Positions 56,255 to 63,800 of a DNA stretch of 64,000 bases are shown piece after piece (the stretch's first letter is position 1; each line of letters begins with the position of its first letter). Made by a program: the position numbers and the translations under genes. The stretch comes from Vibrio pomeroyi. Its GTDB lineage: Bacteria; Pseudomonadota; Gammaproteobacteria; Enterobacterales; Vibrionaceae. The notes below the pieces were generated by a model. That model was not told the origin of the DNA and searched no databases. It saw nothing but the letters and a program-made list of their open reading frames with translations. Location: positions 2,356,001 to 2,420,000 of the forward strand of contig NZ_AP025506.1 in assembly GCF_024347595.1 (NCBI RefSeq), written 5' to 3'.

Positions 56255-57226
56255 ATGTTTAATTTTGCCAATTTTTATCAACTTATTGCCCAAGATACTC
56301 GCCTTCAGCCGTGGCTAAATGTTCTTCCTCAACAGCTGACGGATTGGCAAAATGCAGAACACGGCGACTTCGACCGTTGGTTACGTGCACTGAACAAGAT
56401 TCCACAAGGTGTACCTGACCAAGTTGATCTGAAAAACTCAGTAACGATTGGCAGCTCTACACCGTTCCACACGGGTGAACTTAAAAAGTTAGAAAGCTTG
56501 CTAAAGACTTTCCACCCTTGGAGAAAAGGCCCTTACACGGTTCACGACATCCATATCGATACGGAATGGCGCAGTGACTGGAAATGGGATCGCGTTCTTC
56601 CACATATTTCTCCATTGAAGAACCGCTCGGTGTTAGATGTTGGCTGTGGTAACGGCTACCACATGTGGCGTATGCTTGGCGAAGGTGCTCGTCTAACCGT
56701 AGGTATCGACCCTTCTCACCTTTTCTTGGTTCAGTTTGAAGCGATCCGTAAGTTAATGGGCGATGACCAACGTGCACACCTGTTACCTTTAGGTATTGAA
56801 CAACTTCCAAAACTGGAAGCGTACGACACTGTATTCAGCATGGGCGTGCTATACCACCGTCGCTCTCCGCTTGATCACTTAATTCAACTAAAAGACCAAT
56901 TGGTATCTGGCGGTGAGTTAGTGCTTGAAACCTTAGTGATTGAAGGCGACGAAAATGCAGTTCTGGTTCCTGTTGACCGTTACGCGCAGATGAGAAACGT
57001 GTACTTCTTCCCTTCTGCTCGAGCACTAAAACGTTGGCTTGAACAGGTAGGCTTTGAAGACGTACGCATCGTTGACGAAAATGTCACCACAATCGGCGAA
57101 CAACGCACGACAGAATGGATGACACACAACTCTCTACCAGATTACTTAGACCCGAATGATCCAAGTAAAACGGTTGAAGGTCACCCAGCACCAAGACGTG
57201 CCATTCTTGTAGCGACCAAGCCATAA
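56255..57226 (+). CDS. cmoB: tRNA U34 carboxymethyltransferase CmoB
   Basis: A 323-residue methyltransferase-fold enzyme that transfers a carboxymethyl group from carboxy-SAM to 5-hydroxyuridine at tRNA position 34. The cofactor motif [20 protein letters not shown] and the [16 protein letters not shown] region are clear, and the N-terminal helical domain starts [22 protein letters not shown] as in the family. Terminator immediately downstream. Confidence 0.96.
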
Positions 57227-57237
57227 ATGTGATGCCC

Positions 57238-57277
57238 AAAAGCCATTATTTAGTTGATAACAGAGTAATGGCTTTTT
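57238..57277 (+). terminator. Terminator after cmoB
   Basis: An 11-bp stem AAAAGCCATTA/TAATGGCTTTT with a loop of 17 bases, followed by a T-tract to 57277. Confidence 0.75.
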
Positions 57278-57435
57278 GGTGGCTACAACGCCACCTTTTG
57301 CTTCGCTGTGGGCTTTCACAAAAATGCGCGTAAATTGAACGAAAATTGACTTATGATTAATAAGTGAGCTATTTCAAATTACAATAATTGGCGTCGCGCT
57401 CACATTGCGATTCAATATGACCAGACTCTTACAAT

Positions 57436-57459
57436 AGGATGCTTCACGCATCCTTTTTT
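57436..57459 (+). terminator. Orphan intrinsic terminator upstream of the retropepsin gene
   Basis: A 7-bp stem AGGATGC/GCATCCT with a 5-base loop and six T residues. No gene ends here: cmoB has its own terminator at 57238-57277. It could end a small RNA transcribed from near 57345 (where TTGAAC and TTGACT hexamers lie) or attenuate the following operon. Confidence 0.75.
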
Positions 57460-57514
57460 GTGGGCTAAACTTCTAAATAGTCTGAACTATTCTCTAATTT
57501 CCAAAGGTTTTTTT

Positions 57515-58255
57515 ATGTTTAAGCGATTATCGCCTATTGTGGCGGTTGGTTTGCTCTCTGGCTGTACCCTTACTAACGGTGCTGCCTACCACCAAGAAAC
57601 TCTCGATGCTATTGCCCGCTCAGAGACAAACATCGCAAATAAGGTTCAAAATCTTGAACTGCAAGTCAGTAATCAAAGTGATTACATTGAAAGCTTAGAA
57701 GACGAAATCATCACCCTTTCAAATCAGTTAGATGTCCATCTAACGAGCATGGAACACAAAGTCATTGAAGAGCTAGAGGAAGAAGAACCCGTAGCAGTTG
57801 CAGCGGCTCCTATCGCTCCTACCTCACAACCAACTATCCTTGGCGGAATCGAAAAAGTGTCTATCGACTCAATCAAACAAAGCTTTGATGCTCGAGTGGA
57901 TACTGGCGCAACAACCTCCTCTTTAAATGCCGTCGATATTAAAGAATTCGAACGAAATGGTAAGAACTGGGTTAAGTTCCACCTAGACGACCAAGGGCAA
58001 GCAGCAGAAGACCAAAAATGGATTGAAGCGCCTGTTGTACGTTATGTGAAAATCCGTCAATCAACGAATGATCAGACAGAACGTCGAGCTGTGATTGAAT
58101 TATGGGTTAAAGTTGGAAAAATCCATGAAAAAGCGCAATTTACATTGGCGGATCGCTCTCAAATGAGTCACCCTGTATTACTAGGGCGCGAATTTATCAA
58201 AGACATAGCGCTAGTAGATGTAAGTAAAAAGTACGTACAAACGGAAGTTAAATAA
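57515..58255 (+). CDS. Lipoprotein with retropepsin-like (RimK-associated, PF05618) domain
   Basis: A 246-residue predicted lipoprotein. MFKRLSPIVAVGLLSGC has a lipobox with Cys17 and Thr at +2, so outer-membrane sorting is likely. A heptad-rich coiled-coil segment (about 28-85) and an acidic/Ala-Pro linker precede the retropepsin-like domain (about 108-246), with the catalytic-type motif DTGATTSSL at 129-137, then LADRSQMSHPVLLGREFIKD. This domain was once named a zinc protease. The frame extends upstream to 57458, but the ATG at 57515 with AAAGG ahead restores the signal peptide. First gene of the operon with the 7TM and ATP-grasp genes. Confidence 0.87.
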   Translation: MFKRLSPIVAVGLLSGCTLTNGAAYHQETLDAIARSETNIANKVQNLELQVSNQSDYIESLEDEIITLSNQLDVHLTSMEHKVIEELEEEEPVAVAAAPIAPTSQPTILGGIEKVSIDSIKQSFDARVDTGATTSSLNAVDIKEFERNGKNWVKFHLDDQGQAAEDQKWIEAPVVRYVKIRQSTNDQTERRAVIELWVKVGKIHEKAQFTLADRSQMSHPVLLGREFIKDIALVDVSKKYVQTEVK

Positions 58256-58272
58256 CAATAGTAGGGTAAGCT

Positions 58273-59778
58273 ATGACGTCAAGAATTCCATTTTATATCT
58301 CTATATTCCTGCTTATCGTGGCAGGTATAACACTGAGTATGTTCAGACATACGACCTACGGTGTACCTTGGACTCCAGGGGAAACCAGACAGGTTTGGGA
58401 CGTTGAAGCTCGCATTGAGTTCAACGCAGTAGGCAAAGAAGCAAAAGTTTCCTTAGCGGCTCCTCATACTCAGTCTAACTACACACTTATCGGCGAATCG
58501 GCGTCATCACCAGGTTACGGTATTTCTTACTTAAATACTGAGTCAGGTCGTCGTGCTGAGTGGTCTATTCGTTACGCAGATGGCCCTCAAACCATCTACT
58601 ACAAGACACAATTCCTAGTCGACAACCAAGCTAAAGTGAACGACACACCACCAGAAGGTGAAGTGGTTCAACCAAGCTTCGACGGTCCGGAAGAAGCGGC
58701 GTCTCTTGCTCTGATCGACAGAGCGACAAAGCGTTCTGCAGACAATCTAACGTTCACTCGTGAGCTCATCAAAACGCTGAATGATCCAGACAGCCAAAAC
58801 TCGGCGCTGATTCTGAACAACATGACCAAAGTGGAAGCGACACACAAGCTACTTTCAGCAGCGAAAATACACAACAAAGTGGTTGGTGTTATCGAGCTAG
58901 AAGATGGCCGTCGTCGTCAATCTATTCAGAACATGATTCAGATTTGGGATAACGATGAGTGGATTCTTTTCTCTCCGGAATCGAGCGAACAGCAAGTTCA
59001 ACCAAACCTACTGATCTGGGACGAATCAAACGTGTCTCTGCTTGATGTAGTGGGCGGTCAGAACAGTAAAGTTCACTTCTCTATGATTGCTCAAGAGGTT
59101 TCACCGACTGAAGCAACCAACAGTAAAGTATCGGCTGATCAGCTGTTAAACCTATCAATTCACAGCCTACCGCTAGAAGAACAAGCGATGTTTAAAACCA
59201 TCATGCTGATTCCTATCGGTGCACTTATTGTTGTGTTCTTGCGTGTCATCATCGGTTTGAAAACGTCTGGTACCTTCATGCCAGTTCTGATTGCGGTGGC
59301 CTTTGTTCAAACACAATTGGTAACGGGTATTGTTGGCTTCCTACTGATCGTTGGTACGGGTCTTATTATTCGAAGTTACTTGTCCAAACTCAACTTGCTA
59401 CTGGTTGCCAGGATATCCGCCGTAATCATTACGGTAATCATGATTATCTCCGTGTTTACCGTGGTCGCGTTTAAAGTCGGTCTAACTGAAGGTCTATCGA
59501 TTACGTTCTTCCCAATGATCATCCTATCTTGGACTATCGAACGTATGTCTATCCTATGGGAAGAAGAAGGCGCGAAAGAAGTAATGCTACAAGGTGGTGG
59601 TTCTCTATTCACTGCGGTTCTTGTTTACTTAGGCATGACTAACCCGTTCATTCAGCACTTAACGTTTAACTTTATTGGTTTACAGCTTGTTATTCTAGCG
59701 ACCATCTTGCTACTAGGTAACTACACAGGCTACCGTCTAACTGAGCTTCGTCGCTTTAAACCGCTAGCGGAGGACTAA
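58273..59778 (+). CDS. Inactive transglutaminase-like protein fused to seven membrane helices
   Basis: A 501-residue membrane protein. One N-terminal helix (IPFYISIFLLIVAGITLSM) is followed by a soluble, presumably periplasmic, transglutaminase-like domain (about 30-305) and a C-terminal bundle of about seven helices. It matches the Pfam pair Transglut_i_TM and 7TM_transglut. The whole protein contains no cysteine, so the Cys-dependent transglutaminase activity is lost. The gene starts 17 bp after the retropepsin gene and ends 3 bp before the ATP-grasp gene. It may link cytoplasmic peptide or amide synthesis to a periplasmic partner; that is inference. Confidence 0.87.
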   Translation: MTSRIPFYISIFLLIVAGITLSMFRHTTYGVPWTPGETRQVWDVEARIEFNAVGKEAKVSLAAPHTQSNYTLIGESASSPGYGISYLNTESGRRAEWSIRYADGPQTIYYKTQFLVDNQAKVNDTPPEGEVVQPSFDGPEEAASLALIDRATKRSADNLTFTRELIKTLNDPDSQNSALILNNMTKVEATHKLLSAAKIHNKVVGVIELEDGRRRQSIQNMIQIWDNDEWILFSPESSEQQVQPNLLIWDESNVSLLDVVGGQNSKVHFSMIAQEVSPTEATNSKVSADQLLNLSIHSLPLEEQAMFKTIMLIPIGALIVVFLRVIIGLKTSGTFMPVLIAVAFVQTQLVTGIVGFLLIVGTGLIIRSYLSKLNLLLVARISAVIITVIMIISVFTVVAFKVGLTEGLSITFFPMIILSWTIERMSILWEEEGAKEVMLQGGGSLFTAVLVYLGMTNPFIQHLTFNFIGLQLVILATILLLGNYTGYRLTELRRFKPLAED

Positions 59779-59781
59779 GTT

Positions 59782-60762
59782 ATGTTTGATCAGTTTACTT
59801 CACCGTTTAGGTTGAAAGACAAAGGCATAATGGGAATGAACAAGCGTAACCATAGTTACATTGGTCGCTACAATGATCGTTCCAAGTATCCACTCGTTGA
59901 TGACAAGCTTAAGACTAAGATCATCGCTGAACAGGCTGGCGCTACCGTGCCAAAGCTGATTGGCGTTATTGGTCACCAAGCTGAAGTAAAAACAATCCAC
60001 AAGATGGTAAAAGAGTGGCCGGGTTTCGTAATCAAGCCAGCTCAAGGCAGTGGTGGTAAAGGCATACTTGTTGTGACTTCTCACAAGGACGGCGTTTATA
60101 CCAAGCCATCAGGTTCGACTATCAATGAAGAAGACGTAGAGCGTCACATCAGTAACGCTCTTGCAGGTCTTTTCTCACTTGGTGGTAAGAACGATGTTGC
60201 GGTAGTTGAAAACCTCATCAAGTTTGATGAGTGTTTCGATGGCTTTAGTTACGAAGGTGTACCAGATGTACGAATCATCGTATTCAAGGGCTACCCTGTA
60301 ATGGCGATGATGCGCTTATCTACTTCAGCTTCAGACGGCAAGGCTAACTTGCACCAAGGGGCTGTGGGCGTAGGTATTTGTATTGCGACGGGTAAAGCCG
60401 TTCGTGCGGTTCAGTTTGACCACCCAGTCACTCACCACCCAGATACGGGTAAAGAGTTGGCGCTACTTCAAGTGCCGCATTGGGAAAAACTGCTCACACT
60501 GGCATCAAGCGCTTGGGAAATGACAGGTCTTGGCTACATGGGTACTGACATGGTTCTAGACCAAGAAGAAGGCCCAATGGTACTTGAGCTTAACGCACGT
60601 CCAGGTTTGGCTATCCAAATTGCGAATGGTGCGGGTCTGCTACCTCGATTGCACCATATTGAGAACCTTGGTACGCCGGCTGAGTACCCGAAACCAGCAG
60701 AGCGCGTTGCATACGCTGCTAAGCAATTCGGTGTTCACGGCAACGAGATTGTTCCAAACTAA
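59782..60762 (+). CDS. RimK-like ATP-grasp ligase (alpha-L-glutamate ligase-related)
   Basis: A 326-residue cytoplasmic ATP-grasp enzyme. ATP-binding features are PGFVIKPAQGSGGKGILVV, VENLIKFDECFDG, DVRIIVFKGYPVMAMMRLST and the metal-binding TDMVLDQEEGPMVLELNARPGLAIQIANG. It likely joins an amino acid or amine to a carboxylate using ATP. The GGAGG ribosome-binding site precedes the ATG, within the end of the 7TM gene; the three genes form one operon closed by a terminator at 60807-60844. Confidence 0.9.
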   Translation: MFDQFTSPFRLKDKGIMGMNKRNHSYIGRYNDRSKYPLVDDKLKTKIIAEQAGATVPKLIGVIGHQAEVKTIHKMVKEWPGFVIKPAQGSGGKGILVVTSHKDGVYTKPSGSTINEEDVERHISNALAGLFSLGGKNDVAVVENLIKFDECFDGFSYEGVPDVRIIVFKGYPVMAMMRLSTSASDGKANLHQGAVGVGICIATGKAVRAVQFDHPVTHHPDTGKELALLQVPHWEKLLTLASSAWEMTGLGYMGTDMVLDQEEGPMVLELNARPGLAIQIANGAGLLPRLHHIENLGTPAEYPKPAERVAYAAKQFGVHGNEIVPN

Positions 60763-60806
60763 GCAAGTAGCTGACTAGGTCACTTGATACCTAACTAGAG
60801 CTCAAT

Positions 60807-60844
60807 AAAAAAGCTGCATAACTCTGAGAGTTACGCGGCTTTTT
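60807..60844. terminator. Bidirectional terminator between ATP-grasp and formate dehydrogenase genes
   Basis: A long imperfect stem (AAAAAGCTGCATAACTC with GAGTTACGCGGCTTTTT, one mismatch and one G-U pair) and a 3-base loop, with A- and T-tracts for both directions. Confidence 0.85.
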
Positions 60845-60872
60845 AGTCTCTGCCACTTGTTAGCGAGTTGGG

Positions 60873-63800
60873 CTAAGCTTCTGTCGCTTCAATTTCAGGC
60901 TCACGAATCGGATCAATGCGCACTGCCGCAACCTTAAACTCAGGGATCTTGGCATGCGGATCTGTCGCCGTTGTCGTCAGACGGTTCACAGGAGACTCCA
61001 CGAAATGGAATGGAATAAACACCACGCCTTTCTGCATTCGCTTCGTTACAAATGCTGCGATTTCAATTTCACCACGACGTGTTGAGACTTTGAGCATCTG
61101 ACCATTCGAGATCCCTAACGCTTCAGCGTCATGAACACTGACCATCGCACGTGGCCCTGCTAAATTATCCAGACCTTTCGTTTTACGTGTCATAGTGCCA
61201 GTATGGAATTGCTCTAAGATACGGCCTGTCGTTAATACTAACGGGTATTCCGCATCTGGCAGTTCTGCCGCATATCGAAACGGAATCGCTTCCATTTGGC
61301 CACGTCCACGAGTGAACTGAGTCTGGTGCATAATACGTGTGCCATCAGGGTTGTTTTTATTGCTTGGCCATTGCACGCCATTAACTGTGATGTTTTCCCA
61401 ACGTAAACCACCATATTGTGGCGTGACACGAGCAATCTCATTAGTAATGTCCGCAACTGAATCGTAGCTCCAACCGCCGCCCATTGCGTTGGCTAGCATT
61501 TGGATAATCACCCAATCCTCTTTCGCTTCACCTGGAGGCAATACCGCTGGGTTAATACGCTGAACGCGTCGTTCAGTATTAGTAAAGTGACCAGACTTCT
61601 CGGCGAACGAGCAAGACGGCAGAACCACATCGGCATACTGCGCCGTTTCGGTTAAGAAGATGTCTTGCACCACAAGGAAATCTAACGCTTCAAGCCCTTC
61701 AATCACGTGTGCTTGATTCGGGTCACTGAGCACAGGGTTTTCACCCATCACATATAAACCACGCACATCTCGATGACACGCCCCGTCAATAATTTCGGTC
61801 AGCGTTAACCCCGTTTCAGCAGGCAAATCAGCAACGCCCCACTCCATCGCGAATTTTTGGCGAACCATTGGGTTATACACTTTCTGATAACCCGGTAGGT
61901 TATTTGGCAATGCACCCATGTCGCATGCACCTTGAACATTGGATTGACCACGCAGCGGGTTGATGCCCCCACCTTCAATACCGATATTGCCACATAAGAG
62001 CTGTAGGTTAGCAATAGAGCGAACGTTGTCGTGACCAGTGGTGTGTTGCGTGATACCCATAGAGTAATACACCGCCGTGCGTTCTGCAGTACCTATCAAG
62101 CGCGCCATCGCGAAGATGTCTTCTGCTTTAACGCCCGTCACCAGTTCTACTTTGTCTAGTGAGTAGCTTGGTGACATCACCTCTTGTAGCAAGGTATCAA
62201 AGCCATCGACACGATCATCAATGTAATCTTGGTCATACCAACCGTGCTTGATAATCTGCTGCATCACGCCATTAATCAGCATCACATCAGTACCCGGTCG
62301 GTGTGCCAAGTAAAGCTCAGCATGGTCGGCAATATCGATTCTCTTAGGATCAGCGACGATCAGTCGAGCACCGTTATGCCTTACTGCCTGTTTGATGTGT
62401 GAGCCGATAATTGGGTGCGCGGATGTGGTGTCAGAACCAATGATAAAGATGACATCTGAGTGTTTGATGCTTGGGATATCATTGGTCATCGCTCCACTAC
62501 CTAGAGACGCTTCAAGTCCAGTCACCGTCGAAGCATGACAAAGGCGAGCGCAATGGTCGACGTTGTTGGTGCCAAGTTCACGACGAATGAATTTTTGGAA
62601 CACATAGTTATCTTCATTGGTGGTTTTAGCCGATGAGAAACCCGCCAGTGCATTACTACCAAAACCTTGTTTAATTGCTGTGAACTTATCGGCAATCAGC
62701 GTAATGGCTTCTTCCCAGCTCGCAGGTTGTAGCCAGCCATCTTTACGAATTAATGGCGTAGTCAAACGGGCGTCGCTGCCGACGAAGTCGAAACCGAAGC
62801 GTCCCTTAACACACAGCATGCCTTCGTTAACCGGAGAATCACCGCCCTCGATATAACGGATTTTGTTTTTTGCTTCGTCAACATGCATGGTCAGCTTACA
62901 GCCCACACCACAATAAGTGCAGATAGTATCGACCTTTTTGAGGATGTCGGTGTCGCCTTGTTTTCTATCTCTCGCATCTACCATCGCACCTGTTGGGCAG
63001 GCTTGAATACAAGAGCCGCATTGAACACAATTAGAGTCGCCCATTAAGGTCTTGTCAGCCCCAAAATTTGGGCGGCACTCAGGTCTTGAAGCTGGCTTGC
63101 CGTCTGACTGATTCATGAAGCTTAGAACGCCATGAACGTTCTGTTCACGACATGCTTGGATACACTGACCACAACTGATGCAGCGGTTGGCGTCAAAGAT
63201 GATGAATTCAGAGCTATCATCGACAGCAAACTTCTGCCTTGTCGAACCAACTTTGGATTCCTCTGCGCGAATGGCTTGCCAGCTCTCATTAGAAGCAACA
63301 TCGATTTTGTATTCTGGATGTGTTTGGATTGCCTTGTACTCAGTTGAGTAATCACGAAGGTCACAATCGGTATTGGCTTGGCAACCACACTCTAGACATC
63401 TTGCGGCTTCTGCGATTGCATCGGCATTATCAAAGCCCGTTTCTACTTCATCGAAGCTTTGCTCTCGCTGCTCTGGTGTTAGCTCTGGCATAATTTTGCG
63501 CGCCATGCGCTGTATCGACTTATACTGCTCGGGATCAACGGCTTTTAGCTGCTTATGCTTTCTTGAGTTAAACGGTTTAGCTGGAATGTTTTCCATATCA
63601 CCATTGAAGAATCGGTCGATCGCTTGCGCAGCAATACGCCCGTCTCCTACCGCTTCAACTGCTGTCGCTGGACCACGACGGAAGTCACCGATACTAAATA
63701 TATTGCCCGTACCTGTGTGCATGGTTTGCGGATCAGCGTCCGCGGTGTTCCAACGTGTCAGTGGGATATCAATCTCTTCGTTATCCATGAAACTTAAATC

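Follow-up and report, generated by a model that had tools for sequence, protein, structure and literature searches.

The 64,000-nucleotide stretch of the Vibrio pomeroyi genome analysed here (hereafter, the window) contains a three-gene operon encoding a retropepsin lipoprotein, a membrane protein with a transglutaminase-like domain and an ATP-grasp ligase. This trio is the Vibrio version of the rlo operon (rloABC), which was described in 2025 in Pseudomonas aeruginosa PA14, with orthologues mentioned in V. cholerae (PMC12239564), and which determines the survival of P. aeruginosa in low salt and beta-lactams. For the operon in the window, orthology and gene order are established, as are the loss of the catalytic triad in RloB and the intactness of the active site in both RloA and RloC. 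The rlo operon is a genuine, strongly conserved and previously described system, to which we add three new points: two builds of RloA, relatives of RloB with an intact triad that imply a common core of ligase and seven-transmembrane (7TM) protein, and a conserved repeat upstream of the operon. Among these, the intact-triad relatives, a comparative finding, alone could alter the understanding of the rlo system.

The operon, its conservation and its products

The three open reading frames (ORFs), together with the features located within them below, lie on the + strand and are separated by gaps of 17 bp and 3 bp. They comprise rloA (57515..58255; 246 amino acids), rloB (58273..59778; 501 amino acids) and rloC (59782..60762; 326 amino acids). 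The original prediction, made from the letters of the window, had reported this spacing together with a lipobox, a DTGA motif, a cysteine-free membrane protein of 501 residues and an ATP-grasp ligase, and each of these was found where it had been placed. It had also held that the families recur together and had named a lack of conserved co-occurrence as a refuting outcome; co-occurrence is instead very strong. All 57 further genus loci fetched carry rloA, rloB and rloC adjacent and in the same order (with short ORFs for rloA in L107 and rloB in L119), and so do the named loci (79 of 80), apart from L243, whose contig begins inside rloB.

Among 61 sampled genomes of the genus, the source genome included, the RloB family PF14402 was found in 58. 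It is absent from G012, G025 and G036; two of these, G012 and G036, are nearly complete genomes that carry a VxrA-type kinase. In the class sample PF14402 was present in 26 of 143 genomes, and 18 of the 20 high-scoring loci fetched are complete trios; at L162 the contig ends before rloC, and L166 has no adjoining rloA. In the phylum sample (65 of 398 genomes) 20 loci were fetched, picked to span low and middle scores, and 12 of the 13 canonical ones hold the complete trio, L216 being without rloA.

RloA combines an export signal, of lipobox type as judged by motif only, with a PF05618 retropepsin domain bearing DTG-A. The lipobox LLSGC contains Cys17 (codon 57563..57565), the sole cysteine of the protein, and a lipobox Cys is present in 57 of the 58 genus rows. 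The residue that follows is Thr, which in Escherichia coli directs a lipoprotein to the outer membrane, and by this rule RloA in the window is probably anchored there. Residues 22-95 (57578..57799) form a coiled-coil-like spacer whose hydrophobic periodicity peaks at 3.5-3.6 residues; it is therefore probably a helix, with a possible reach of about 11 nm. The retropepsin domain (residues 108-244, 57836..58246; E 5.5e-49) carries the catalytic motif D129-T-G-A at 57899..57910, and its solved relatives are 9g58, 9g59 and 2pma. At the four symmetric positions published as poly-glutamate-binding contacts of RloA (46, 92, 114 and 137; PMC12239564), the window protein has R, R, R and R, the reference having K at 46. 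None of the NCBIfam models for RloA1, RloA2, RloA3 and RimB scores over its curated cut-off (the top score being 114.2 against 210 bits for RloA3), and we therefore refer to an RloA-type lipoprotein rather than to any one of the three.

An alignment of 171 PF05618-type rows (58 from the genus, 79 from named loci and 34 from the class and phylum, the last including some RimB-like proteins) separates two builds. The first, to which the long coiled-coil lipoprotein in the window belongs, has a lipobox and a long N-terminal part with no disulfide pair (130 rows); the second, a soluble form, has a short N-terminal part, no lipobox and both cysteines (18 rows); the remaining 23 rows are mixed. Neither disulfide cysteine is present in the genus rows (0/58) or the named rows (0/79). 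In the parts of the published account considered here these cysteines are termed conserved among periplasmic RloA orthologues, and no lipoprotein form is described there (PMC12239564). Tethering of the protease is thus possible in Vibrio, and its site of action may matter. The active-site motif itself also varies: DSG, with Ser at the Thr position, occurs in 26 of the 79 named rows (for example L261-L266, L272-L297) and in 8 of the 34 class and phylum rows, and in L118, the rloA of genome G042, DTA replaces DTG and the basic contact residues are lost, so that the protease looks dead in an operon that is kept.

RloB consists of an N-terminal transmembrane helix, a periplasmic transglutaminase-like domain (residues 39-278, 58387..59106) and a 7TM domain (about residues 304-485, 59182..59727). 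Residues 324, 367, 423-424, 431 and 491-494, assigned to the cytoplasmic side, are invariant. It matches PF14400 (1e-55) and PF14402 (3.3e-109), and over its full length NCBIfam NF052267, 'osmotic stress tolerance membrane protein RloB', at 350.8 bits, below the 900-bit 'exception' cut-off. The periplasmic domain has transglutaminase-fold matches, but the Cys-His-Asp triad is lost: across the genus these columns hold a gap, mostly Gln, and Asn or Ser, which bears out the earlier view of the domain as catalytically dead. Freedom from cysteine is typical of the genus, with none in 52 of 58 proteins and one in 6. The closest named relatives are Vibrio proteins of about 95% identity, and the host probably belongs to the V. 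splendidus group; many public records name RloB 'Gonadoliberin III', a clear misannotation. In Shewanella vesiculosa, independent work identified a gene of this type, there termed an inactive transglutaminase, as affecting membrane vesicles (PMC12096838).

RloC matches PF14397 (4.6e-100) and TIGR02291 (555 bits; cut-off 314.2), and its nearest folds are ArgX and RimK. These matches predict that RloC is an ATP-grasp enzyme of the RimK/ArgX type, acting in the cytoplasm as an amide ligase.

Relatives of RloB with an intact triad

At eight loci (L169-L171 and L199-L203) the relative of RloB retains Cys, His and Asp at the transglutaminase positions. The eight span four GTDB families, with five in one family, and are therefore not independent. 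PF01841 scores above cut-off in the L169 relative, the one intact-triad protein scanned, and L172 and L173, in which the Cys is lost, score as well; an SC-x-G motif is present in all 120 listed of the 1167 homologues found for the L169 protein. Some NCBI records name such relatives 'UUP1 family membrane protein'. A PF14397-type ligase adjoins all eight genes, and a retropepsin lies within 1 kb of none, whereas among the 117 other RloB-type loci a retropepsin lies that close in 111 and a ligase in 114. The ligase is followed in all eight by a long transmembrane-TPR gene (TPR was profile-checked in L169, L171 and L199, and in L201 the contig ends within the gene), and in seven by a gene for a secreted protein of 390-400 amino acids, one of which gives a weak, below-cut-off match to an outer-membrane barrel model. 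In two alphaproteobacterial-type loci, L204 and L205, the ligase is present beside a 7TM protein without the transglutaminase domain.

Because the ligase is kept both where the retropepsin is missing and where the transglutaminase domain is missing, the 7TM protein and the ligase look like the common core of the system. Since the wider transglutaminase superfamily has this same triad, the 'inactive transglutaminase' of RloB is most simply read as a derived state. A more tentative suggestion is that this constant pair produces a polymer or tag of glutamyl type, or exports it, and that the periplasmic cutter is exchangeable. In the intact-triad loci the 7TM protein would do the cutting with its own cysteine transglutaminase-like domain, with TPR and barrel-like partners as in polymer export; in the rlo branch, that domain having died, the task would have passed to an aspartic retropepsin encoded by a gene of its own, in the window as an anchored lipoprotein. 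Five of the eight intact-triad genomes (drafts, 88 to 99% complete) have no PF05618 match anywhere. Several observations weigh against such an exchange: the other three genomes encode one or two PF05618 proteins elsewhere, in L166 and L216 the domain is dead yet no retropepsin adjoins, L172 has neither a retropepsin nor a ligase partner, and L173 has a retropepsin on the opposite strand and no ligase. If the exchange were true, the substrate would have to be cleavable by both a cysteine enzyme of transglutaminase fold and a glutamate-preferring aspartic protease, which would narrow the search for it. The intact-triad relative offers a second, independent enzyme for identifying the substrate. 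Some of these gene neighbourhoods may already be covered by Iyer et al. 2009, which reportedly deals with amidoligases; literature searches by family name found nothing.

Flanking sequences and a candidate VxrB site

Terminator-like hairpins flank the operon on both sides. Upstream, AGGATGC-TTCAC-GCATCCT followed by a T run (57436..57461, + strand) probably ends the transcript from the cmoB side, and such a hairpin lies within 120 nt before rloA in 25 of 58 genus loci, against 0.3 expected from shuffles. Downstream, a hairpin between rloC and a convergent formate-dehydrogenase-like ORF (60816..60836) was flagged on the - strand; the + strand continues into GGCTTTTT. A candidate extended -10 element of the rlo promoter, GCTAAACT, is located at 57464..57471 (+), and by raw count 38 of the 58 genus loci have an octamer resembling it. 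The conserved hairpin and T run, 60-80 nt before rloA, were also considered as a leader attenuator or small RNA, but the terminator of the upstream unit is the simpler explanation, because the -10 candidate comes after the hairpin and the repeat begins at the cmoB stop in several species. Rfam gave no match in 57000-61000 at E up to 1, and VadR was rejected as an RNA of the rloA leader since it sits elsewhere, between vca0002 and vca0003.

In V. cholerae, rloABC belongs to the cell-wall-stress regulon of VxrB and is one of the loci that VxrB upregulates most strongly (PMC12239564). In the window, a VxrB-like candidate site, TTGAACGAAAATTGAC (57335..57350, + strand), agrees with the published motif TTGACAAAA-N2-TTGAC at 13 of 16 positions, with N counted as a match and three mismatches. 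Matches with up to three mismatches occur upstream of rloA in 29 of 58 genus loci, compared with 116 of 2900 shuffled sequences. An 11-bp-spaced repeat, TTGAC-N6-TT[AG]AC, is found in 16 of the 58 and always on the same strand, whereas a shuffled set would be expected to yield 0.03; this spacing is specific, the other spacings from 3 to 11 giving 0, 0, 1, 0, 0, 0, 0 and 0. The loci are related, so that neither count is made of independent cases, and the copy in the window, with an imperfect first half-site, is not among the 16. The start regions of murJ and vxrA in the same genome, taken as controls, have no match at up to four mismatches; nor is there enrichment in the 64-kb window (8 matches at up to three mismatches, 13.2 expected) or in the whole genome (40 at up to two mismatches, against 66 for the reversed pattern). 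PF11884, which we take to be the VxrA-type kinase family, is present in 59 of the 61 genus genomes, the source genome included. Given the outcome of the controls and the genome-wide counts, the sole support for the site is its conservation upstream of rloA, and VxrB control of the rlo operon is a candidate.

Proposed mechanism and comparison with known systems

In P. aeruginosa, rlo phenotypes extend to low salt, beta-lactams, biofilm and cell shape (PMC12239564). Loss of all secreted RloA proteases in a triple rloA mutant is lethal in low salt, and deletion of rloB or rloC rescues this lethality (PMC12239564); there the three genes serve a common process, as the original prediction had supposed. 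RloA, whose dimers have been solved as crystal structures, cuts poly-glutamate in vitro and needs its catalytic Asp, the DTGA residue whose importance had been raised for the window protein (PMC12239564). The accompanying statement that product and target were largely unknown still applies to the natural substrate, but is outdated by this cleavage and by the reported phenotypes.

We consider it about evenly balanced whether the following mechanism, taken as a whole, is correct. RloC and the 7TM part of RloB would make, or hand over to the periplasmic side, an acidic and probably glutamate-containing amide product, which the dead transglutaminase-like domain would hold or present in the periplasm. 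RloA, a dimeric aspartic protease on its coiled-coil spacer, would cut the product, which without RloA would accumulate and harm the wall in low salt. The glutamyl nature of the product, its transfer by RloB, the side of anchoring and harm through accumulation are the steps that we infer. Family recurrence, the dead domain and the probable placement of the proteins in three compartments uphold the original interpretation in part; the role in envelope signalling or a secreted conjugate that it drew from this placement stays putative.

A rather less probable account would have RloC glutamylate a protein of the cytoplasm or the membrane (RloB itself, say, or a regulator of wall enzymes), with RloB relaying that state across the membrane and RloA resetting it by proteolysis, much as RimK and RimB act on S6 (PMC12239564). 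Besides this precedent, ArgX and RimK, the closest RloC folds, both have a protein carrier or tail as their target, and the same genome carries a canonical rimK-rimB pair, as does L162, beside rloA-rloB. With ligase and protease on opposite sides of the membrane, however, a cytoplasmic target would need export, and no target was found. It is unlikely that RloC makes a small amide (a dipeptide or amino-acid conjugate) for which RloB is exporter or sensor while RloA cleaves an unrelated envelope protein, the two being linked by regulation only, since rescue of the protease mutant by rloB or rloC deletion implies that the RloA substrate depends on both (PMC12239564), and the A-B-C linkage is strict. 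Slightly more doubtful still is a role for RloB as a receptor rather than a carrier, toggling RloC on wall strain through putative binding of a peptidoglycan peptide to its dead domain. Membership of V. cholerae rloABC in the VxrB cell-wall-stress regulon (PMC12239564) and the transglutaminase fold of the domain would fit a receptor, but the relatives with intact Cys-His-Asp argue for a catalytic ancestry on a substrate, and not for sensing alone.

The source genome, of 5.66 Mb in two contigs (C1 and C2), encodes further retropepsins. L002:1228-1914 (C2) is a second RloA-like lipoprotein of 228 amino acids, with an acidic Pro-rich linker, directly after an aminotransferase gene. L004:22-1902 (C1, about 683-685 kb, outside the window) is a secreted-looking protein of 626 amino acids with four retropepsin-like units and DTGA in the first and last; among its listed homologues, mostly from Vibrio, 119 of 120 have two DTGA motifs and one has three, and it could be a single-chain retropepsin pair, as in pepsin. 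A cytosolic RimB is encoded beside RimK (L003). This set parallels the three RloA proteins and RimB of P. aeruginosa, and by that analogy the secreted members may be redundant.

The operon in the window shares with PA14 rlo the same three families in the same order, a secreted DTGA retropepsin, a dead transglutaminase domain joined to a 7TM domain, a cytoplasmic ATP-grasp enzyme and basic poly-glutamate contacts, but its RloA is of the lipoprotein type, has a coiled-coil spacer and lacks the disulfide reported for the Pseudomonas proteins. RimK-RimB, which glutamylates and trims S6, is likewise a pair of ATP-grasp enzyme and DTG retropepsin, and RimK is among the closest solved RloC folds; RimK and RimB are, however, cytosolic and have no RloB, whereas RloA in the window has a lipobox and a separate rimK-rimB pair exists in the same genome. 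At L162 (1926-5452) the rimK-rimB pair adjoins rloA-rloB in divergent orientation, in keeping with the proposal that rlo arose from rim. The intact-triad relatives have the transmembrane helix, transglutaminase-fold domain, 7TM domain and neighbouring PF14397 ligase of rlo, and differ in their intact triad, the absence of an adjoining retropepsin, the extra transmembrane-TPR gene and, mostly, the gene for a secreted barrel-like protein of 390-400 amino acids. RloB differs from membrane transglutaminases of the TgpA type and from the 3isr cysteine protease in its membrane part and in having no catalytic triad.
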